From positions 1 through 25,501 of the IMG/VR virus record IMGVR_UViG_3300011114_000013: a stretch of DNA of 25,501 nucleotides; one strand, written 5' to 3'. This document shows positions 8,604 to 24,013 of the stretch, in pieces. The position numbers were made by a program, and so were the translations under genes. The stretch is from a virus. The stretch's first letter is position 1, and each line of letters begins with the position of its first letter. Below the pieces are notes generated by a model. It searched no databases. It was not told the DNA's origin and saw only the letters and a list, made by a program, of their open reading frames with translations.

Positions 8604-8944
8604 CCAAGTAAGCCGGTCATGCCGTACATCTTCATCAATTGCGCGTAGGTCAGATTGCTACCGCCTGGAAGCTGCGGCATCTGCATACCAGCAGACTTCT
8701 CTTGCCCAGCACCCAGCAGAGACATTGCCAGACCAGCATTCATGTTTGGTTTTGCAGCAGGCATCTGTCCAAAGGACTCAGGCGCTTTGATGCCAAGGCC
8801 ATCACCGTAATCAGATGACGGCATAGTCATGTCAAGGTTTGCGTTCTTTACGCCACCATACAGGTCAAAGCCTTCACCCATCATCGGCTTACGCAAACCG
8901 CTGGCAGGATTGTTTTTTCGCAGTAATTCTAGATAGTCGGTCAT
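8600..8944 (-). CDS. Small virion-module protein, 114 aa
   Basis: ATG 8944 overlaps the previous TGA (ATGA), and its own TGA overlaps the next ATG, so it is coupled on both sides. The protein is rich in Met, Gly, Pro and Asn with few predicted structural elements. It begins MTDYLELLRKNNPASGL and ends with an amphipathic YAQLMKMYGMTGLLG. That GLLG-type ending resembles the C-terminus of the gene before it. Likely a small structural or chaperone-like component of the ejection complex; family not named. Confidence 0.65.
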   Translation of the reverse strand: MTDYLELLRKNNPASGLRKPMMGEGFDLYGGVKNANLDMTMPSSDYGDGLGIKAPESFGQMPAAKPNMNAGLAMSLLGAGQEKSAGMQMPQLPGGSNLTYAQLMKMYGMTGLLG

Positions 8945-9675
8945 CCGAATAATCCTAAAAGTCCACCAGCAGCTGCACCCAATGGGTTACCACCGCTGAG
9001 TTGGAATCCAGCCAATGCGCCTCCCAATGCGCCAGCACCGACATTGCGCGAGGTCGGCTGAGTCATTGTCTGACCAATGTTTGCAGGCTGCGCTGACAGT
9101 GCCGCCTGAGTGATACCAAGACGCTGCAACTCAAGGTTTCTAGCCGCATCCAGCTGCTGCTGTGCAAATGACTGTCGGCCTAAGCCTAAGTTCATGGCAG
9201 TCTGATAGCCTTGCTGATTCATTTGACGTGCGGCCTGCGCCAGCGCAGCTGATTGCTGATAACCACCAGAACGCAACTGAGCAGCTGTTCTGGCCGCAGT
9301 CTTTAGCGCAGCCTCATTGGTGAGTGCAGACTGCACGCCTTGACGTGAACCGCCAAAGGCTTTTGCGCCAGTAGCCTGCTGTGCATCGCTCAGAGCCTGC
9401 ATCTGTCGCGCCTCTTCAATATCCCTTAGCGATGTCTGTACAACATCCTGCTCAAAAGGATTCTGAAACTTCATGATGTCTTGAGCGCCAAATGGATTCA
9501 TGCTGGCTTCGTAGGACGCTTTTTCAGCCGCCTGATACATAGGATCAAAGCCAGCAAACTCTTGTACTCCAAGATTACCGGCTGCTGTTTCAGCTTTACC
9601 TACTTGCTCTAAGTACTTGGCCTTGACATCCTCGTCAATGCTTGTTGAAGTTGTTTGTGAACCGCCTTTAGACAT
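8941..9675 (-). CDS. Phage structural protein, internal virion type, 244 aa
   Basis: ATG 9675 follows AAGGGG with a 6-base gap. The protein is strongly helical and Gln/Ala-rich. Residues about 72-125 contain NPFEQDVVQTSLRDIEEARQ and GAKAFGGSRQGVQSAL, a signature I recognise from many podoviral virion proteins encoded next to ejection proteins. The C-terminus is a Gly/Ala/Leu-rich hydrophobic tail (GGALAGFQLSGGNPLGAAAG), which may insert into membrane. A role in the internal core or DNA ejection is inferred from family context. Confidence 0.8.
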   Translation of the reverse strand: MSKGGSQTTSTSIDEDVKAKYLEQVGKAETAAGNLGVQEFAGFDPMYQAAEKASYEASMNPFGAQDIMKFQNPFEQDVVQTSLRDIEEARQMQALSDAQQATGAKAFGGSRQGVQSALTNEAALKTAARTAAQLRSGGYQQSAALAQAARQMNQQGYQTAMNLGLGRQSFAQQQLDAARNLELQRLGITQAALSAQPANIGQTMTQPTSRNVGAGALGGALAGFQLSGGNPLGAAAGGLLGLFG

Positions 9676-9685
9676 ACATTACCCC

Positions 9686-10621: not shown

Positions 10622-10990
10622 CTACAAGTCCTTGCACAAGATGAACCACTTCGGTTCGTACCCCTCGCCCTTTAAAAATGTTCTCTCCCAGCCTTTACGG
10701 CCAGCAAGAGACACTCGGCTGCAACCTATTTCTTTTCCCCATGACTCGATGATAGGTCGCATCAATTGGAGTTCATCTAGGTCGCCGCCAGCAAGGAAGT
10801 AGTGCAAGTCCTTCAACTGCGGGTAGACAATGATCTCGGTAACCACCACTGAATTCTTGCCAGGCCAGAGTTGAAACTGTCCCCGCCTGATTCCTTCAGC
10901 AATGTCCTCAACTTTATGAGTGCCGCCAGAGTATTCTAAGGCTGCTGCTACATGATGGCGCAGTCTCTCAAACTCTTCCTCTTCGCTCAA
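10622..10990 (-). CDS. GNAT-fold-like phage protein (T7 gp13-like position), 122 aa
   Basis: The start is TTG 10990, overlapping the TGA of the displaced tail-protein C-terminus (TTGA). No in-frame ATG exists upstream of residue 77. The core GQFQLWPG, TEIIVYPQLKDLHYFLAGGD and GCSRVSLAGRKGWERTFLK-GEGY (residues about 37-112) follows the pattern of small phage GNAT-like proteins; phage T7 gp13 has a similar fold and position near tail and core genes. The acetyl-CoA loop is not obvious, so catalysis is doubtful. It may act in tail or core assembly. Confidence 0.7.
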   Translation of the reverse strand: MSEEEEFERLRHHVAAALEYSGGTHKVEDIAEGIRRGQFQLWPGKNSVVVTEIIVYPQLKDLHYFLAGGDLDELQLMRPIIESWGKEIGCSRVSLAGRKGWERTFLKGEGYEPKWFILCKDL

Positions 10991-11097
10991 CGCTTACCCG
11001 CCGCCACTGCCTCAATCCGGTTGACACCAACCCGCCAATCTTCCAGCACGGCACCGGTGTACCTGATCTTCACCTGACGGCCAGAGAACCGGAGGGA
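10987..11097 (-). other. Displaced C-terminal segment of the tail nozzle-like gene
   Basis: In the +1 frame relative to the 476-residue ORF, this stretch encodes SLRFSGRQVKIRYTG, then LEDWRVGVNRIE and a final AGKR. It has the look of the conserved end of this tail family (R-F-S/T-G-R-Q and D-W-R-x-G). It ends in a TGA that overlaps the TTG start of the next gene, as expected for the native gene boundary. It is joined to the upstream frame by removing one base near 11094-11104. Confidence 0.7.
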
Positions 11098-12442
11098 TTG
11101 CGGCTGAGTATGGCCCATAGGTAAACTCAGTGTCCATCGGATAAAAGCGCGTCTTGAATGAAATTTGAACTTCGCCCAGCGTCTGCTCATCTGGTATCAC
11201 CTGACGCACAGACATGATGTTGTCGCCGTTTCCAATCTCCATCGGGCCAGACTCAGCGTAGACAGAGCTAGAGTCATAGGCATATCCCACTTCATGCTCG
11301 TAGATGTAGCCTGATGAATCCACCATCAAAGGATTGATAAACACGCCTCGATCTGTGCCAGCAGTACGCCCCATCACGCCAATATTCCAATGGTTTTCAC
11401 GGTAGTTGTAGGTGACATAGGAGTCAACTTCATTGCTGGAACTTGATGGATAGAACCACCAAACTTCACCATATTTTGAATTATGTACAGCGTAAACCTT
11501 GCTGGCCTGGTTGTAGTTCAGATTCTGGAAGACGTAGTCAGAGACATCGCAAGGCATAGGCTTGACATAACCGTCAAATATCCAGAATCCTGATCGACTC
11601 ATCCACATCGCGGCACTATCAATGGCGGCCACAGCCTGCGCTGATATCACACCGCAGCCTGAGCCTACACGTTCAAAGGCATAGACATAGGGTAGGCCGA
11701 TATAGCTGGCAGTATGCACGTCAACGTCAGTAAACAGCAAATTGATGCCTCTGACGCGCTTTCCGCACTTCAGTGAGCCACTGCTGTTGATCTCAAAGTC
11801 ACCGGCCTGATTGGTCGCTAATGCTGTCCATACCGTGTTGTTCTCCTGATCTGACCACTTCACCAGACGCGGGTTGCTAGAGGCACCCAGCGCAAACAGG
11901 AATCTTTCAGCCGTTGCATGAACTGCGGCGCAACCAGTTGGCGCATTAGTGATGACTGCGGCCAGCGTAGGCGTTGTGAATCCCAGCTGCCACTCGTATA
12001 ACTTGCCGTCATAGTTGGAGCAGCCAACTAAATATTCACCCCATGCGTCAAGGCTCCATGTCGTTGCAGGCGTAAATGTGTCAGATGCTGGACGCTGGAT
12101 ACCATATGCGGCTGTTCCATAGGTGTTATAGCCATAACCGGTGATGACAGTAGCGTCAGCAATACCAGAAGTAAATCCGGTTGGCGTAATGTCTTTTACA
12201 ACAGCAGTTGTGCCACTCATGACGTATAGCTTTGAATGCGTACCGCCATTGTCACGCCATGTCAGCAACCCACGGCATTTACCGGTAATGGCTGTCTCTG
12301 TCTTCTTGCGCCAGCCGCCAATAGGACGTAGCGTGTTTTCGTACCAGCGCACAAGGTTAGCGTCATACCAGCGTCCGGCAGACTGATACTCAGTACCATT
12401 GCGGTACACGCCTGGTGGAATTTTTAAGGGTATGAGTGCCAT
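11012..12442 (-). CDS. Tail nozzle / DNA-stabilisation-like protein, C-terminus frameshifted, 476 aa
   Basis: ATG 12442 opens with MALIPLKIPPGVYRNGTEYQ, AGRWYDANLVRW and RPIGGWRKK, a start typical of a podoviral tail family comparable to the P22 gp10 / T7 gp12 nozzle proteins. The body is beta-rich with recurring Trp and Gly, fitting a propeller-like fold. The frame stays convincing to about residue 448 (TYGPYSAA), then turns into an unrelated-looking tail (PSGEDQVHRCRAG). The expected ending lies in the next frame at 10987-11097. A real product ending at 10987 would be about 484 residues. It is therefore either damaged or carries an indel error. Confidence 0.8.
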   Translation of the reverse strand: MALIPLKIPPGVYRNGTEYQSAGRWYDANLVRWYENTLRPIGGWRKKTETAITGKCRGLLTWRDNGGTHSKLYVMSGTTAVVKDITPTGFTSGIADATVITGYGYNTYGTAAYGIQRPASDTFTPATTWSLDAWGEYLVGCSNYDGKLYEWQLGFTTPTLAAVITNAPTGCAAVHATAERFLFALGASSNPRLVKWSDQENNTVWTALATNQAGDFEINSSGSLKCGKRVRGINLLFTDVDVHTASYIGLPYVYAFERVGSGCGVISAQAVAAIDSAAMWMSRSGFWIFDGYVKPMPCDVSDYVFQNLNYNQASKVYAVHNSKYGEVWWFYPSSSSNEVDSYVTYNYRENHWNIGVMGRTAGTDRGVFINPLMVDSSGYIYEHEVGYAYDSSSVYAESGPMEIGNGDNIMSVRQVIPDEQTLGEVQISFKTRFYPMDTEFTYGPYSAAIPPVLWPSGEDQVHRCRAGRLAGWCQPD

Positions 12443-12449
12443 GGCTTTA

Positions 12450-13091
12450 TTATGCGGTTTCTATGGATAGATTGGACACGAATGTGAGGGTGGCAATGAC
12501 TGATGGCACTACAGGTCTAGTCGGCGAGCTGCTGGCCGCGTAGTGCTCAATCTGCACACCAACATCTGTTGGCCGCCACATGATCTCAACATAGTCATTG
12601 GCCGCCAGACTTACAAAGAAGTTCAGCGCGGCAACAATGTGGAATGGGTCGCCAACACCTTTTCTTGGCGCAAAGCCAAATCTGCTGTTTGACTTGTCAA
12701 TGTTTGTGCCGTTCTTCCTAAACCACACGTCAACATCCTGAGATGCGTTGGTGCTATTGGTCAACTGGATGCTGAATTGAATGTTGTAGATGCCAGCCTG
12801 CGCCACATTAAGCCTTGACGAATTTGACAATGTCACGCCATTGCTGAAGTCGGTGGTGTCAAATGTGACGGCATAGGCCGTTGTAGTGTTGGCCGCAACC
12901 TGATCTGTGCCATCCTGAAACGCGCCATATGGATTGTTGATCCACTTACCACCACGCGGCCCAAACAGCGCCGCAAACAGCGCCGTCAGCTTGCTGAAGT
13001 AGGTGTTAAGCGCACCGAATGACTGAGACTGAAACCTCTCGTCATAGGACGCACCAGGCGAGCCAAGATTAGGCTGCGCTGGTGTCGTGAT
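12450..13091 (-). CDS. C1q/TNF-like fibre protein with no canonical start, about 213 aa
   Basis: The frame is open from 13115 to 12450. Its recognisable sequence starts around ATC 13091 (ITTPAQPNLGSPGASYDERF) and continues through GPRGGKWINNPYGAFQDGTD and AAYAVTF-type strands to a jelly-roll-like domain (AGIYNIQFSIQLTNST, VDVWFRKNGT, YVEIMW). I know this pattern from phage fibre or receptor-binding proteins with a C1q/TNF-like fold. No ATG, GTG or TTG lies upstream in frame. The first conventional start, GTG 12836, would give only 128 residues and lose half the protein. It may need a noncanonical start or be damaged. Confidence 0.65.
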   Translation of the reverse strand: MTTPAQPNLGSPGASYDERFQSQSFGALNTYFSKLTALFAALFGPRGGKWINNPYGAFQDGTDQVAANTTTAYAVTFDTTDFSNGVTLSNSSRLNVAQAGIYNIQFSIQLTNSTNASQDVDVWFRKNGTNIDKSNSRFGFAPRKGVGDPFHIVAALNFFVSLAANDYVEIMWRPTDVGVQIEHYAASSSPTRPVVPSVIATLTFVSNLSIETA

Positions 13092-13516
13092 GCAAATGCT
13101 CTTGTGCCGGTCTTGTCAATAATCAAAGCCATAGCGCGGGGATCGGTATCCTCAGTATTAGGAATACTGATATGAGTCCAGCGGTCAAACTCACGAATGA
13201 CCTGATCGTATTCCAGATCAGAGCCAATGATGGCCTTAACGACTTCATCTGGTGTCATGCCTGGCACGCGAATATCGGCGGCACAGCCACGTCTATGTTG
13301 TGATTTGTCAGATGATTTCACTGCATCATTAACGGCTTTTGATCTGAATGCAGAATTCACAATAATCGGCTTACCGCCAAGCACAACCTTGACCTGTTCC
13401 AAGAATTCAGCCAAGCGGTACAGATTGGCTAATTCCTCTTCGTTTGGCAAATTGTCAAACTCGCGGTGATCGGTATGGGTTAATTCTTCAAGGGTAAAAC
13501 TTGGTGATAGATTCAT
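12986..13516 (-). CDS. M15-family peptidase endolysin, 176 aa
   Basis: ATG 13516 overlaps the stop of the Rz-like gene (ATGA). The product is a single-domain peptidoglycan-degrading metallopeptidase (D-Ala-D-Ala carboxypeptidase / L,D-endopeptidase type). The zinc motif S-x-H-x-x-G-x-A-x-D is present at residues 72-81 (SQHRRGCAAD, ligands H74 and D81), with the third ligand H115 in RWTHIS, and the SAFRS motif at 55-59. The natural end of such proteins is near ALIIDKTGTRAFA (residue 142). The last 34 residues look out of frame and overlap the fibre gene, so a stop appears to be missing. Confidence 0.85.
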   Translation of the reverse strand: MNLSPSFTLEELTHTDHREFDNLPNEEELANLYRLAEFLEQVKVVLGGKPIIVNSAFRSKAVNDAVKSSDKSQHRRGCAADIRVPGMTPDEVVKAIIGSDLEYDQVIREFDRWTHISIPNTEDTDPRAMALIIDKTGTRAFASRHQRSLILARLVRPMTRGFSLSHSVRLTPTSAS

Positions 13517-14303: not shown

Positions 14304-14482
14304 CACTTCTTCTCCGGTTCTGGTTTTACAAGCATCTCAGGACAGGTAGCTGTGGCCGTACAAATTGGCGGCTTGCACTCTTCCTTATCCCAATTCTTTG
14401 GGTCTTGACATGGATATCTAAAGCGGTCTTCGCACCCTGTCAAAGACAGGATTATCAGTAATGGAAACAGGAGTCTTGTCAC
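14303..14482 (-). CDS. Small cysteine-rich lipoprotein, 59 aa
   Basis: I choose the GTG at 14482, which has AAGGA with a 7-base gap. The GTG at 14503 has no ribosome binding site. A short signal (TRLLFPLLIILSLTGC) carries a good lipobox LTGC with C17 as the lipidated residue. After it come RFRYPCQDPKNWDKEECKPP and further cysteines at 36, 41 and 47. This type of small Cys/Pro/Trp lipoprotein is seen in lysis regions of other podoviruses. It may be a lysis accessory or a second outer-membrane protein; function unknown. Confidence 0.7.
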   Translation of the reverse strand: MTRLLFPLLIILSLTGCEDRFRYPCQDPKNWDKEECKPPICTATATCPEMLVKPEPEKK

Positions 14483-17839: not shown

Positions 17840-17875
17840 TGATTGTGTGTTTGCGATGATAGTTCCCTTCTTGGG

Positions 17876-18346
17876 TTATACCCAACTCACATTTTGATGT
17901 TGCCACTTCTTGCCTGATTTTAGACAACTTACATGGCCTTGAGTAATTCCAAATTCCAATGCTATTTCTTTTTGTAATTTAGTTGATTGTTTTATCAAAT
18001 CAACTTGATCAATAGTCAGTTTTGACCTTCCATGATCTTCACCAATACGCATTCTTCCTTTGCGCTTCGCATCTTGCATATTTTCTAATCTAGTTCCCAA
18101 TGCAAGATGTTCTGGATTTACGCAATTAGGCACATCACATTTGTGCATCACATCTCTTGCATCTAGTTCTCCATTAAATAAACGATAAGAGACTCTATGC
18201 GCCAATTGATTTTTTGTTGGTGATTTAAAAAATCCATATCCATTTTTTTTCATGCAATATGCTGTCCATAACCAACAACCAGAATCATGTTTATGTACAT
18301 GAGACATAAATCTTTCAACTTCTGATTGTTTTGGTTTTCCAGCCAT
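17876..18346 (-). CDS. Free-standing HNH homing endonuclease, 156 aa
   Basis: ATG 18346 lies one base after the previous stop; a longer reading from 18430 only overlaps that gene. The HNH_3-type core is complete: CWLWTAY (24-30), the AHR histidine (H50), H68 and C70 in MHKCDVPNCVNPEH, N77 and H80. A C-terminal helix-turn-helix (about 110-142, LTIDQVDLIKQSTKLQKEIA) likely reads the target site. The gene is distinctly AT-rich compared with both neighbours, consistent with horizontal acquisition into the structural operon. No intron is evident. Confidence 0.85.
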   Translation of the reverse strand: MAGKPKQSEVERFMSHVHKHDSGCWLWTAYCMKKNGYGFFKSPTKNQLAHRVSYRLFNGELDARDVMHKCDVPNCVNPEHLALGTRLENMQDAKRKGRMRIGEDHGRSKLTIDQVDLIKQSTKLQKEIALEFGITQGHVSCLKSGKKWQHQNVSWV

Positions 18347-18347
18347 A

Positions 18348-18539
18348 TTAACCAATCGACTGACTGATGCCATCAGCAAACACGCTGCGCTTGAGCGCCA
18401 TGTGGACAGATCGGTGAACCATTTCACCATCCAGCCAATACTCTACCCAGCTTGTTGTCTCGGTGTCGTTGTCCAATGAACCTTCACGCTTCTCAAGCAA
18501 TGAATCGTCCATCTCGCCCTTGGTGGTAGTGACTATCAT
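18348..18539 (-). CDS. Small conserved-looking structural-module protein, 63 aa
   Basis: ATG 18539 overlaps the adaptor stop (ATGA). The product starts MIVTTTKGEMDDSLLEKREG and includes WVEYWLDGEMVHRSVHM, a pattern I have seen in small phage proteins next to adaptor genes, with no function assigned. The C-terminus (FADGISQSIG) ends right where the HNH gene begins. I cannot exclude that a few residues were changed by that insertion. Confidence 0.7.
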   Translation of the reverse strand: MIVTTTKGEMDDSLLEKREGSLDNDTETTSWVEYWLDGEMVHRSVHMALKRSVFADGISQSIG

Positions 18540-19165
18540 CCGAATGTCCTTGCACGCGCCAACAGAGCGCCGCCAGAGGTTGAACCACGGTCATCAGCAA
18601 CTTGCAACTGCTCTAAACCAGCCAGGTATAACGATGACCACACAGAGATTCTCGCATCATCCTGCAAGTAAGGCGCAGCCTGTAACAGCGCACCGTACAG
18701 GTAAACATCCGGAGCCTGAGTCAGCAGCCAGTTGGTTGCAACAGTAGATGACAACTTGGTCAACTTGGCGTAGTACACCAGGTCAGCGGTGTACGCTCCA
18801 TCAGGAATTGGCAGCAACCGAAATTGATTGCCCACCACCGTGAAGTACAGCGGCTTACCGCTGGACAAGTAGGTGGTATTCGACAGCTGATCCATTGCCT
18901 CAATGGTCTGGAATGTCAAAGATGTCACCGGATTGGTGTCCAGCTTGATCGACTTAACTTCCATGAAGTCATCAGGCACCGTGCCGTACTCGGCGGCAGC
19001 TGCAAAGGATGCAGTGGCACGCACAATCATCTGACGTGTACGCAGCTGGCGCTCCATCTGCGCCTCTGCCAGGCTGATGAAGTCAGCAATAACAGAAGTC
19101 AAATCAGTACGGTTGAGCCAATCAGCCAGTGATGATTTAAGTTCGGTGTAGGTGGTCAATGCCAT
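18536..19165 (-). CDS. Head-tail adaptor, SU10-type, 209 aa
   Basis: ATG 19165 directly follows the previous stop (TAAATG). The helical N-domain MALTTYTELKSSLADWLNRT with FISLAEAQMERQLRTRQM, then VPDDFMEVKSIKL and a C-terminal helix bundle (WLLTQAPDVYLYGALLQAAP) match phage adaptor proteins of the SU10/P22 gp4 type. These proteins bind the portal and extend the channel to the tail. Its place after the capsid gene agrees with that role. Confidence 0.85.
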   Translation of the reverse strand: MALTTYTELKSSLADWLNRTDLTSVIADFISLAEAQMERQLRTRQMIVRATASFAAAAEYGTVPDDFMEVKSIKLDTNPVTSLTFQTIEAMDQLSNTTYLSSGKPLYFTVVGNQFRLLPIPDGAYTADLVYYAKLTKLSSTVATNWLLTQAPDVYLYGALLQAAPYLQDDARISVWSSLYLAGLEQLQVADDRGSTSGGALLARARTFG

Positions 19166-19819
19166 TTAGACTGCCTCTTTTTCAAGCTGTTCCTTCATGA
19201 CCCATGTGTGTTCATGCCGGAATTCAAACGTGCCAATATGTCCTATTTCTTTTGAGACATCATGGTCAATATACACCTTGAAACCCAATTCCTGAGCCTT
19301 CTTGCAGAAGAAGACATCCTCTCCCATGTAGCCGCGAGTGCCGGTCTGCCAAGGCATATCGAACCATGGCTCTGTCATGTTCTCAAACACTTCGCGCTTG
19401 ATCAGCATCACGCCAGTGCCAACTGAGCCAACCTCTTCTAAGCCGGTGGATTCAGGCATGGTGTAAACCTGTTGACGCTTGCCATTCTCGTCATAATTCT
19501 GCGCCGTTGGCCCTGTGGGCATACGTCTGCGCGCGCAGTTGGTTGCCACGATATCCACGTCATGCGCCATCAACCGCTGGATCATGTCCTGCGGGAAAGT
19601 CATGTCGGAGTCGATGAACAGTATGTGGCTGCAACCCTCGCGCATCGCGTCAAGGCACAGGTCGGCACGCTGATTCTGAATGAGCGTGCCTTGCAGAATC
19701 TTGAGGCTGACAGCGTCAGTAGTGTTCAGTGTGTGGTACGCCACCATATTGACCATGCAATAGGTGTAATTGGTATGAACCATGTCACGCGCTGGCGTGC
19801 AGACTGCGATGTATTTCAT
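19166..19819 (-). CDS. Phage GT-A fold glycosyltransferase, 217 aa
   Basis: ATG 19819 overlaps the previous stop (ATGA). The protein starts with a beta strand MKYIAVCTPARDM and has HILFIDSDMTFP with the metal-binding DSD at 70-72, an acceptor-side MGEDVFFCKKAQ (E167/D168 as possible base), and H194-x-G196 near the end. These are hallmarks of family 2-like GT-A glycosyltransferases. It lies inside the head gene cluster, so it may modify virion proteins or host surface sugars. The donor and acceptor cannot be read from sequence. Confidence 0.8.
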   Translation of the reverse strand: MKYIAVCTPARDMVHTNYTYCMVNMVAYHTLNTTDAVSLKILQGTLIQNQRADLCLDAMREGCSHILFIDSDMTFPQDMIQRLMAHDVDIVATNCARRRMPTGPTAQNYDENGKRQQVYTMPESTGLEEVGSVGTGVMLIKREVFENMTEPWFDMPWQTGTRGYMGEDVFFCKKAQELGFKVYIDHDVSKEIGHIGTFEFRHEHTWVMKEQLEKEAV

Positions 19820-20130
19820 ACCTGTCCTGGCCTCACTCTAAAGAACCTGTTATCGGGATCGTTCAACCATTTTTTCATGTAAACCGGATCATCCAACTTA
19901 CCCTCTGCCTTCAACTGAAAGTAGATTGACTCAGGAATGCTGGCAATATGGTGCCATTCGCCCTTCCAATCTGCTTTGTTGTCGATGGCGGCAAAGTCGC
20001 GCTTGTTGGCCTCAATGACGGCAGTCAAGTCCTGCGTTGTCTGAATCGTTGCCTCATCAGTCAGATCGTTGTAGTGCCAAGTGCGAGTGATCCCCTTCTC
20101 GGGGCTTGCATCAAAAAATCGTTTTTCCAT
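19816..20130 (-). CDS. Small conserved phage protein after the capsid gene, 104 aa
   Basis: ATG 20130 lies just after a strong hairpin that follows the capsid stop. The sequence (TWHYNDLTDEATIQTTQDLT, WKGEWHHIASIPESIYFQLK, WLNDPDNRFFRVRPGQV) resembles a family seen downstream of capsid genes in T7-like and related phages. Its LNDPD-x-R-x-FR-x-xPG ending is recognisable. No function is known to me. Confidence 0.75.
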   Translation of the reverse strand: MEKRFFDASPEKGITRTWHYNDLTDEATIQTTQDLTAVIEANKRDFAAIDNKADWKGEWHHIASIPESIYFQLKAEGKLDDPVYMKKWLNDPDNRFFRVRPGQV

Positions 20131-20137
20131 GTAAGTA

Positions 20138-20157
20138 GGGGAGGATTTCTCCTCCCC
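20138..20157 (-). other. Perfect 8-bp hairpin with GAAA tetraloop after the capsid gene
   Basis: On the minus-strand transcript GGGGAGGA pairs with TCCTCCCC around GAAA, a very stable GNRA loop. It lies between the capsid fusion stop (20173) and the next ATG (20130). No T run follows in the transcription direction, so it may be an RNA-stabilising or partial-attenuation element. It also sequesters a GGAGG motif. Confidence 0.5.
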
Positions 20158-20172
20158 TTTCCTCTTATTTGA

Positions 20173-21624
20173 TTAAGAAGTGATCAAGTCTGCTGCCAGA
20201 CCATGAGCATTTTCTGCTAACACCTTATGTCCAAATTCAATCAAAAGCATTCGTTTTTCGGCATCGCCTGTCTTCGCAAGTTCTACTTGCTGGTAAGGAC
20301 GCAGGACAGTCATCTTTGCGTACTCAGGATCAATGATCCAACCATCACGCTCGCGCTGGAAGCGGTTAGCGATGACGGCCACGTTGCCAAAGTCGCTGAC
20401 GTAGATGTCAACTGCACCGATCAACACGGCAGGCTTTTCGCCACCGTTGATGTTGAAACGTGAAGATGCAATGCCAGAGAAACCGGAAACGCGCTGCTTG
20501 TTGACAGGGCCAACCATCAGGATTTTCGGAGTACCGCCAGCAGACCATACTTTCTGAATCACATTCTTGAGAATGGTTTCAGTAAAGGTACGCACGTTGC
20601 CGTCAGTACGCGCACTGTTTGGCAGTGTGGTGTAGCTTGGGTCAGTGCCGTTGGTTTGCTTGTCGGTGTTGGTCTTGACAAACGCGCCCAAAGAGGCAGT
20701 CACGCGAGCAGTGGTAGTGTTGCCGGCAACAGCAATACCGCCATTCAACATGATGAATTCTTGGTCACGTTTCAGTTCAGAGCCGCGCTTGGCGATCTGG
20801 TATGCCAGTTCAGAACGGCGGCCAGCCTTGTTGACCACTTCCTCAGTGTTCGACAAGACAATAGTCTTGCGTGAAATCTGAGCATAGTTAGTCAAGCGGA
20901 CGGTTGCTGTCACTGAATCAAATGTGCCAACGTCATCACCCTCAAGCTGTGCGTTAGCAGCAGCGTCAAATCCAGCTTTCTGGCCGAATTGAACAAGCAT
21001 GGCTTTTTCAGCCGCAGCCTTCTTGGAGTCTTTCCACTCGGGAATAGCCGCCACTAAAGCCTCTTGCTCATGCTGCAACACCATCTGGTGCTGCTGCATT
21101 TGTTCCTGTTGCGACAACTGAGACAGGCGCTGCTTTTCGCTTTGAATAGCCGCGTTTTTCTCTTGGTTTTCTCGCATCACCTCGCGCTGCCGTACCCATT
21201 CAATGGGGTCTTCTTGGTAAAGACGTTCCCAATCAATATTCGGCTGCGTTGCCTGCTGAACCTGAGCCTCTAAAGCTCCTAACAAATGAGCGTATTGCTC
21301 GCGCTCGGCACGCACTGCCTGCAACTCTGCCTCTGCGTGCTTTCGCACCTCGGCAATTTGCTGCGTTTTGCGTGTGTAATCCTGAGTCCTTGAGTATCCT
21401 TTTTGGAGTTCATCCAGCGTCACCTCGACTTCTTTACCGTCAACCTTGACGGTGAAGACTTGTGGCTGTTCTTCCTCTTCAGAATTCTCATCTTCTTCGG
21501 ATTGTTCGGAATCAGTTTCATTGCCATCCGCGTCTGCATCGGTCAGCAACTCATCTTCTCCCGCCGCGCCCTCTTCGGGCAACTGCGACTCGCCTGAATC
21601 CTCTTGTCCCTCATCGGGGAGCAT
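20173..21624 (-). CDS. Scaffold-major capsid protein fusion, 483 aa
   Basis: Residues 1-219 read as a phage scaffolding protein: an acidic low-complexity N-terminus, VDGKEVEVTLDELQKGYSRT, long Gln/Glu helices and AAIPEWKDSKKAAAEKAM. From about 221 the sequence switches directly into the SU10-type major capsid family (formerly DUF5309): NAQLEGDDVGTFDS, YAQISRKTIVLS, EEVVNKAGRRSELAYQIAKR, KILMVGP and a complete C-terminus. The capsid N-arm and first strands (roughly 60 residues) and the scaffold C-terminus are missing. This implies a deletion that kept frame, or an assembly error. ATG 21624 has AGGA too close, so the start is uncertain. Confidence 0.85.
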   Translation of the reverse strand: MLPDEGQEDSGESQLPEEGAAGEDELLTDADADGNETDSEQSEEDENSEEEEQPQVFTVKVDGKEVEVTLDELQKGYSRTQDYTRKTQQIAEVRKHAEAELQAVRAEREQYAHLLGALEAQVQQATQPNIDWERLYQEDPIEWVRQREVMRENQEKNAAIQSEKQRLSQLSQQEQMQQHQMVLQHEQEALVAAIPEWKDSKKAAAEKAMLVQFGQKAGFDAAANAQLEGDDVGTFDSVTATVRLTNYAQISRKTIVLSNTEEVVNKAGRRSELAYQIAKRGSELKRDQEFIMLNGGIAVAGNTTTARVTASLGAFVKTNTDKQTNGTDPSYTTLPNSARTDGNVRTFTETILKNVIQKVWSAGGTPKILMVGPVNKQRVSGFSGIASSRFNINGGEKPAVLIGAVDIYVSDFGNVAVIANRFQRERDGWIIDPEYAKMTVLRPYQQVELAKTGDAEKRMLLIEFGHKVLAENAHGLAADLITS

Positions 21625-21626
21625 TC

Positions 21627-21830
21627 CTACAAGTGCATCGGCTGCTTCAGCAAATTCTCAATGGCACGCAACTGCGCCCAACAAATTTCACGCTTGTTAG
21701 CCTCTTCCGGCTTGCTGTTCTCAAACTCCCAAAGCAAATCTCCACGCATCTTCTCCAAGGCCGTTGCAAATACCTCATCCTGCATAAACTGCTCGGACTT
21801 GCGGCCTTTTCGTACTTGTTCTTCGTTCAT
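21627..21830 (-). CDS. Small gene between portal and scaffold, 67 aa
   Basis: ATG 21830 overlaps the portal stop (ATGA). The product is entirely helical and charged (MNEEQVRKGRKSEQFMQDEV, ALEKMRGDLLWEF, AQLRAIENLLKQP). Comparable short helical proteins are common between portal and scaffold genes in podoviruses. Function unknown; likely a head assembly accessory. A two-base gap separates it from the scaffold-capsid ATG. Confidence 0.75.
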   Translation of the reverse strand: MNEEQVRKGRKSEQFMQDEVFATALEKMRGDLLWEFENSKPEEANKREICWAQLRAIENLLKQPMHL

Positions 21831-24013
21831 TGAGCCATTCCATTAAGGTTGATGGGTGGAGGCACATTCGCCGCTGTCTGCACTGCCTGTTGAACAATTG
21901 CTGACTGCTGCTGCATGGCCTCCCGATCCATAGCCTGCTGCGCTTGAATCTCAGCAGTGCTAATTTGTGTGTTGTACTTTAACTCAAGTTCATATTTCTT
22001 GAGCATTAAGTCTTGCGCCAGTTGATCTCTACGGTAATCGTCATCGCGGATCATCTGCTCACGCTTCAATTCCAACTCGGCAGCCTTCTTCTGGATGTCG
22101 GCTTGGATCGACTGAGCCTGAACCTGTGCCAGCACCTCCTCTGGCGTTGGCTTTGGCGCATCGGCCTGCGGCATCTGGAAGTCTGCCGGCAACGTCTGGA
22201 TGTAGCTGGATGCATCCTTAAAGCCAGACAACTCAATGATCTTCTGGATGCTGCGGATGTACATGGCCGGTGTTACCACCGGATTGCTCAGGCCAAACTG
22301 CTGCATGATCTGCTCTTGCTTTCCCGCAATCATGGTTAGTGCTTGGATGCGCTCATTGGTGTCGCCATTGCCCAGGCCAATATTCACCGTCACGTCCATG
22401 CTGGAATTCCAGACTCGCGGGTCAATTTCCACCCACTCATTACGCAAGCGCACCATGCGCGGCTTGTCTTGGTGGGTAGTCATTAGGTACAAGATGCCCT
22501 TAAACAGTTTCTTCATGCCCTCGGCCAGTATGCGTGCCTGCAACTCAATACGGCCTTGGCTGGCACCAATGGTGGCCGCCACAGCTGCCTTTGTGCTGGA
22601 CTGCAATGCGTCAGCGTCCAACCCCATTGCGGCCTTGCTCATGCCGGTGCGGTCTTCTCGCATCTGATCCATGTAGTCGAGCATGGGGAATGCGGCCTGT
22701 CCAACAAATGGGGTCGTAAAAGGCTGCACCATGCCAGGCGCACGCATCCGAATAATGGCACCGGTTTCGTTGTTCAACACGTCATCAATGTTGACCTGAC
22801 CTTCCACCACGGCAGTGCGCGGGTGGATCGACTGCGCCAGTGAGTCCAGCGTGTTTCGCAGTACTTCGGACTTGATCTCTTGAATGTCATGCGTCAGATC
22901 GAATATCGACATTGCCTCAAGCGGTGAGGTATGCGGCTCTGGATCACATGGAAAATCAACAAATGGGATGTAGCTGGACGGCAGATTACGCACCACTGTG
23001 TAGCCAGAACCCATGCAGCAGACTTTTCGCAACTCAGGAATACCGTCACCGTCAAAGTCCACGCGGATATAGGACTCAACGTACAGCACGCGGCGCTGAC
23101 CAGGATTCAAACTGTCACCAGCACCCATGGTGGTGGACAGCGGCTGGCGTGCCAGGTACTCGTCATTACTGTCCAGATCGGTGCTGGATATGTTCTCCTC
23201 AATCTCATCCAACTCGTAACCCATCTGAATCAGATCGTCCACCGTTGCCATCTGGCGATGGGCAATGATGCCAGCATCATCAAACGATCTGGCGCGGCGG
23301 TCAATCACCAACTCTTCAGGCGGCACGGCCATGATCTTGATGCGGCCATCCTTGACGGTGCGCTTGATCTGCACGTCATGCAGCATCGGCTGAGGCATCT
23401 GAATCATTTGGCCGGTCATCGGATCAATCTGCGGCTGCATCATGTCCATCGGCACTGATGGGTCAGGGTAGCTGACCACAATCTTGACCTCGGCCTGCTC
23501 ATTCATCAGCATCTGCACGGTCTGGTCATCAAGGCCGGAGTATTCTTCAATCTTGACCTCTTCAACCTCATCCCACCAGTACTTTGCAATGCCGCACTTA
23601 CGCACCAGCGAGTCCTTGAACAGCGCGTAGGTGGTCATGAAACCGTTGTTGTCGTTGCTGAAAATGTAGTTGGCGTAGTCAGTGGCCTGCTGTGCGCCTG
23701 CGACATCTTCCGGCCCACGCGGTACATATTCCACGACATTCTCGGTGCTGAAGAAAACGCGCATCAGGCTTGGCAGCATGGCGCTCACTGTGTCGCGCAC
23801 CTCCATCGCCACAACCTGGCTGCGGCCATCTTCCTCGTTGCCAAAAGGGTCGCCACGGTAGTACTCTGTTCCCTTGGCGCGGATCGGTGAAACATCAGCA
23901 TCAATGTAGCTGACGGCATCTTCTAGTTCACCGGCAACAATGCCCTGCAACTCGGTGTCATCCATCGGATTGACGGCGGCCATGTCGGTGCTGATGTTCA
24001 TATCGTTGATCAT
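21827..24013 (-). CDS. Portal protein, P22 type, 728 aa
   Basis: ATG 24013 overlaps the DUF6321 stop. The length is close to P22 gp1 (about 725). Recognisable parts include YYRGDPFGNEEDGRSQVV, LPSLMRVFFSTENVVEYVPR, LFKDSLVRKCGIAKYWWDE, DRRARSFDDAGI, a wing/stem region with SYIPFVDFPCDPEPHTSP and LRNTLDSLAQSI, and TNERIQALTMIAGKQEQI. The last 110 residues are Gln/Glu/Lys-rich and helical, like the barrel of long portals. It forms the dodecameric DNA gate of the capsid and binds the terminase and adaptor. Confidence 0.92.
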   Translation of the reverse strand: MINDMNISTDMAAVNPMDDTELQGIVAGELEDAVSYIDADVSPIRAKGTEYYRGDPFGNEEDGRSQVVAMEVRDTVSAMLPSLMRVFFSTENVVEYVPRGPEDVAGAQQATDYANYIFSNDNNGFMTTYALFKDSLVRKCGIAKYWWDEVEEVKIEEYSGLDDQTVQMLMNEQAEVKIVVSYPDPSVPMDMMQPQIDPMTGQMIQMPQPMLHDVQIKRTVKDGRIKIMAVPPEELVIDRRARSFDDAGIIAHRQMATVDDLIQMGYELDEIEENISSTDLDSNDEYLARQPLSTTMGAGDSLNPGQRRVLYVESYIRVDFDGDGIPELRKVCCMGSGYTVVRNLPSSYIPFVDFPCDPEPHTSPLEAMSIFDLTHDIQEIKSEVLRNTLDSLAQSIHPRTAVVEGQVNIDDVLNNETGAIIRMRAPGMVQPFTTPFVGQAAFPMLDYMDQMREDRTGMSKAAMGLDADALQSSTKAAVAATIGASQGRIELQARILAEGMKKLFKGILYLMTTHQDKPRMVRLRNEWVEIDPRVWNSSMDVTVNIGLGNGDTNERIQALTMIAGKQEQIMQQFGLSNPVVTPAMYIRSIQKIIELSGFKDASSYIQTLPADFQMPQADAPKPTPEEVLAQVQAQSIQADIQKKAAELELKREQMIRDDDYRRDQLAQDLMLKKYELELKYNTQISTAEIQAQQAMDREAMQQQSAIVQQAVQTAANVPPPINLNGMAQ

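Follow-up and report, generated by a model that had tools for sequence, protein, structure and literature searches.

An open frame joining scaffold to major capsid protein in an SU10-type phage record, most probably an artefact of assembly

Does this locus encode a capsid protein with a scaffold built into it, or does its single open frame reflect sequence left out between two genes? The window that we analysed comprises an entire virus record (25,501 bases), continuous and with zero N's. The original prediction, made from the letters alone, had seen in it a 483-residue open reading frame (ORF) running from a phage scaffold into an SU10-type major capsid protein, and had offered three readings: that the head architecture is new, that the genome is a deletion derivative, or that the assembly collapsed.

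The fused frame and what it lacks

The ORF exists as predicted and lies on the minus strand (Table 1). Profile searches matched its residues 7-221 to the head scaffold family phrog_3927 (2.7e-47; profile positions 51-262 of 342) and its residues 196-482 to the major head protein family phrog_1328 (8.4e-72), and the Pfam domain SU10_MCP (PF17236) scored 236.6 bits, passing the curated cut-off of 24.1. These matches agree with the proposed order of scaffold (residues 1-219) then SU10 major capsid protein (residues 220-483). The capsid domain is nevertheless incomplete, the PF17236 profile being covered from 56 to 291 of 292 with its N-terminal part absent, and the scaffold has lost both ends compared with the relative L033, in which phrog_3927 is matched from 21 to 340.

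Table 1. Features of the head region and positions of the three drop-outs in the window
Feature	Positions	Strand	Basis or comparison
Apparent scaffold-capsid fused ORF, 483 aa	20173..21624	minus	ORF listing, profile matches
Capsid fragment, native residues 57-320 of 320 by L033, plus stop	20173..20968	minus	comparison with L033
Scaffold fragment, an island of 683 bases flanked by the two head drop-outs	20969..21651	minus	comparison with L033
Junction 1, 429-430 bases of relatives absent (net)	20968..20969		mapping to relatives
Junction 2, 153-155 bases of relatives absent	21651..21652		mapping to relatives
Truncated small gene between portal and scaffold, 67 aa, phrog_8161	21627..21830	minus	86 aa in L033
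SU10-type portal gene, upstream, full length compared with relatives	21827..24013	minus	profile match and relatives
Junction 3, 8 bases of 7 of 7 spanning relatives absent	11093..11094		mapping to relatives

In L033, the scaffold (330 aa) and the capsid protein (320 aa) are encoded in different frames. With L033 as the reference, the scaffold island corresponds to native residues 20-247 of 330, its last codon lacking the third base, and residues 1-219 of the fused ORF correspond to native residues 29-247. The two parts meet inside codon 219, close to the place originally given (20953-20970, codons 220-224), and indeed neither a stop codon, a start nor a ribosome site separates them. The absence of the scaffold C-terminus and the capsid N-terminus was also correctly seen: the segment missing at junction 1 comprises, in L033, the last 83 scaffold residues, the stop codon, an AAGGA motif and the first 56 capsid residues. 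The ends of this junction have no homologous base in common with L033 and a single one with L007.

The original prediction missed two things, a truncation of the scaffold N-terminus and a second drop-out 683 bases from the first, at 21651|21652. The segment absent at junction 2 includes the last part of the small upstream gene together with the ribosome site of the scaffold, its start and its first 19 codons, so that native scaffold residues 1-19 are not encoded in the window; the ~155-base gap leaves neither flanking gene intact, and the portal is the next gene but one upstream of the fused ORF. Because junction 2 removed the native scaffold start, the ATG of the fused ORF corresponds to an internal position, residue 29, of the L033 scaffold (330 aa). 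The sole motif resembling a ribosome site, AGGA, abuts this ATG with zero spacer, and the fused ORF has no usable start and ribosome site of its own. Among the relatives, 59 of 78 capsid starts matched a strict ribosome-site pattern, as did 41 of 65 scaffold starts, with 2 more capsid and 8 more scaffold loci having no start in the contig.

Junction 3 causes gene 11012-12442 to lose its frame near the C-terminus, the native C-terminal end continuing in another frame as the small ORF 10987-11190. We looked for direct repeats at the joins and found none.

Comparison with relatives and controls

The head module is of the SU10 type (portal PF23899, scaffold phrog_3927, capsid PF17236), and its genes, their order and their strand are those of the relatives, from which the window differs by the absence of ~430 bases at the scaffold-capsid boundary and ~155 bases at the boundary between the small gene and the scaffold. 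We retained the best 80 of at least 592 confirmed viral-contig matches, across which the protein identity of the capsid part is 92-99%. Scaffold and capsid occupy separate ORFs in all 73 of these contigs that hold both, as had been claimed for relatives, and the remaining 7 contain the capsid part only. Other genomes with the same fusion, for which the original prediction had proposed looking, were therefore not found among these 73, and the exact pattern of junction 1 gave no match in viral contigs or elsewhere searched; that of junction 2 gave none in the viral contigs, where it was sought. Records almost identical to the window may have been kept out of these searches. A phage collection yielded 294 matching records, and among the 40 listed, 7 covered at least 80% of the query at one place, always in two pieces. 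A protein scan of a genome collection (17 pattern matches) returned one relative, which holds the scaffold part only, ~95 bases from a contig end.

Fourteen of 14 longer records, ten of them re-mapped, are collinear with the region apart from clean drop-outs at the two head junctions, 20968|20969 and 21651|21652. The absence of several hundred bases, named in advance as evidence against the fusion if reads showed it, is what comparison with relatives reveals; its size was sought in 19 relatives, 2 of which yielded no value. When each of ten records was used as the query in a control, no drop-out was common to all relatives, the widest shared being common to eight, with sizes of 229-627 bases. 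A scan for private indels, which left out G004 (a near duplicate of G006) and G010 (a near duplicate of G002), reported the 8- and 155-base drop-outs and not the 430-base one, the support for which comes from the separate locus comparisons and mappings; the same scan also found small private indels in other records, mostly of 1-5 bases. Several genes conserved in relatives are full length here (among them 8944-9678, 12453-13115, 18539-20172 and the portal), other genes being too variable to judge.

Two further length differences did not qualify as losses of this kind. At 14439|14440, where 76-78 bases are absent relative to G001 and G002, the alignments are continuous for G004, G006 and G011, and the spacing is equal in G005, so this is probably a natural indel; a 207-base difference at 1922 is common to G002 and G010 only. 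Elsewhere, ~495 bases at ~17870-18365 are present in the window and G001 and absent from G002, and hold an ORF that we take, by eye, to resemble an HNH endonuclease. Just after the capsid module, a 217-aa gene (19166-19819) has its best match in phrog_1574, of unassigned function, and also matches the glycosyltransferase family phrog_12406 (5.2e-09); its identity is 95-98% in the five best matches among ten records. Our search for literature on DUF5309 together with scaffold and capsid found none.

Conservation, constraint and predicted structure

The DNA of the lost scaffold C-terminus is ~98% conserved over 250 columns in six relatives, compared with ~97.6% over 250 for the retained scaffold, so the lost stretch is among, though not singly, the most conserved DNA of the head module. 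The conservation of the 155-base segment is not unusual. Across 15 aligned relatives, 45 of the 56 capsid residues lost here are invariant. The L033 capsid protein matches PDB chains 7z45_A and 9ny2_A, and the lost residues align, by sequence, to both. A phage with these losses should not be able to assemble heads.

What remains of the two proteins still appears to be under constraint. Measured on the best 80 of at least 592 matches, the scaffold part has a pN/pS of 0.07-0.13 against its five closest relatives and 0.26 against the sixth (median of 68, 0.23), and the capsid part 0.08-0.11 against its six closest relatives (median of 80, 0.08). The low values of both halves against the closest relatives thus give no sign of decay. 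Structure prediction gave a mean pLDDT of 40.8 for the fused ORF, with residues 186-483 below 50, and 29.4 for the intact L033 capsid protein, in each case from a shallow alignment.

Synonymous divergence in the scaffold gene (20969-21651 and its homologues) is 0.05-0.14 among the window, L033, L028, L018 and L007. For portal and capsid it is 0.2-0.5 in most of the same pairs, falling to 0.03 in pairs with L018 or L028. We considered whether the low scaffold values mark the window as a strain chimera and rejected the idea, as L033 and L028 show the same pattern (scaffold 0.045; portal and capsid 0.25-0.36). A step in strain affinity at the junctions was looked for, and none was found.

Explanations for the fusion

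If the fusion worked, the scaffold fragment would serve a shortened capsid protein as its own scaffold domain, in the manner of HK97 gp5. The frame is open across junction 1, and in gp5, as in the window ORF, the scaffold lies N-terminal to the capsid in one open frame. According to the part of PMC10275583 available to us, gp5 joins a 103-residue N-terminal scaffold domain to a 281-residue capsid domain that is complete, N-arm included, bearing out the original statement that HK97 keeps the whole capsid domain; the same text describes the N-arm as not visible in Prohead I, so the linking region can be flexible. The window ORF, in contrast, is without the first 56 capsid residues, most of them invariant in relatives, and without both scaffold ends; it has an internal ATG abutted by AGGA in place of the native start, and no counterpart among the 73 relatives (from the best 80 of at least 592) that hold both parts. 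It therefore fails the comparison with gp5 on completeness, start site and conservation, and we consider a working fusion extremely improbable. That a head could be made from a single scaffold-capsid chain with neither the capsid N-arm nor either scaffold end is hardly credible. Of the three readings first offered, the new head architecture is not supported, none of the 73 relatives being fused and the exact junction patterns having no match elsewhere searched, and the deletion derivative and the assembly collapse are left.

The record might instead be a faithful copy of a defective genome, a helper-dependent or dying remnant with true deletions of 430, 155 and 8 bases. Homology-free deletions do occur in nature, and the record is continuous and without N's. 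Set against this, the three separate homology-free losses occur in one record in which several conserved genes are full length, both halves of the ORF are without relaxed constraint against their closest relatives (from the best 80 of at least 592), and the two head junctions recur in no other viral contig searched. We regard a defective genome as unlikely. The homology-free joins argue against recombination between repeats or slippage, and, there being no direct repeat at them, we rejected repeat-mediated deletion and repeat collapse.

We conclude that the fusion is most probably an artefact of assembly, produced by joining pieces and omitting sequence between them. We favour assembly error because this one record has three private, homology-free drop-outs, the 430- and 155-base segments being missing against 14 of 14 collinear relatives and the 8-base segment against 7 of 7. 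The ~430 bases between scaffold and capsid and the ~155 bases between the small gene and scaffold would have been dropped and the neighbouring pieces butted together without N's, and a 430-base gap would keep one open frame by chance one time in three. We infer that the source of the loss was the assembly, which would have bridged unresolved gaps between pieces, and not the phage itself; the software step is likewise a supposition, and the artefact would need one such as gap removal in scaffolding, or chimeric reads. The true phage very probably has the gene order of its relatives: portal, small gene, scaffold, major capsid protein.

Where viruses that share highly similar regions coexist, contigs are said to come out shortened or chimeric (PMC5610896), and de Bruijn assemblers to fragment at conserved inter-strain regions or build a consensus (PMC11443906). 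The sections of these two papers available to us describe fragmentation, consensus and chimeras, and not omitted sequence; the corresponding text of one of the two mentions neither deletion, indel, gap nor scaffold, and puts chimeras at <5% of contigs of ≥10 kb. The chimeras of PMC5610896 join different genomes, whereas the pieces of the window look collinear with one genome type, with sequence omitted. A break of the assembler at a conserved region would help to explain the 430-base segment, less so the 155-base one: since the latter is not unusually conserved, this cause fits one gap only. Among the 80 loci, contig ends show no build-up at the 430-base gap, with 7 falling within it and 16 in a neighbouring kilobase.

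Were the fusion real, it would call into question whether heads of this kind need the N-terminal region of the capsid protein and the C-terminus of the scaffold. As an artefact, it is a caution that an open frame across an assembly gap can mimic a new protein architecture, and that comparing gene spacing with that of relatives exposes such false architectures.
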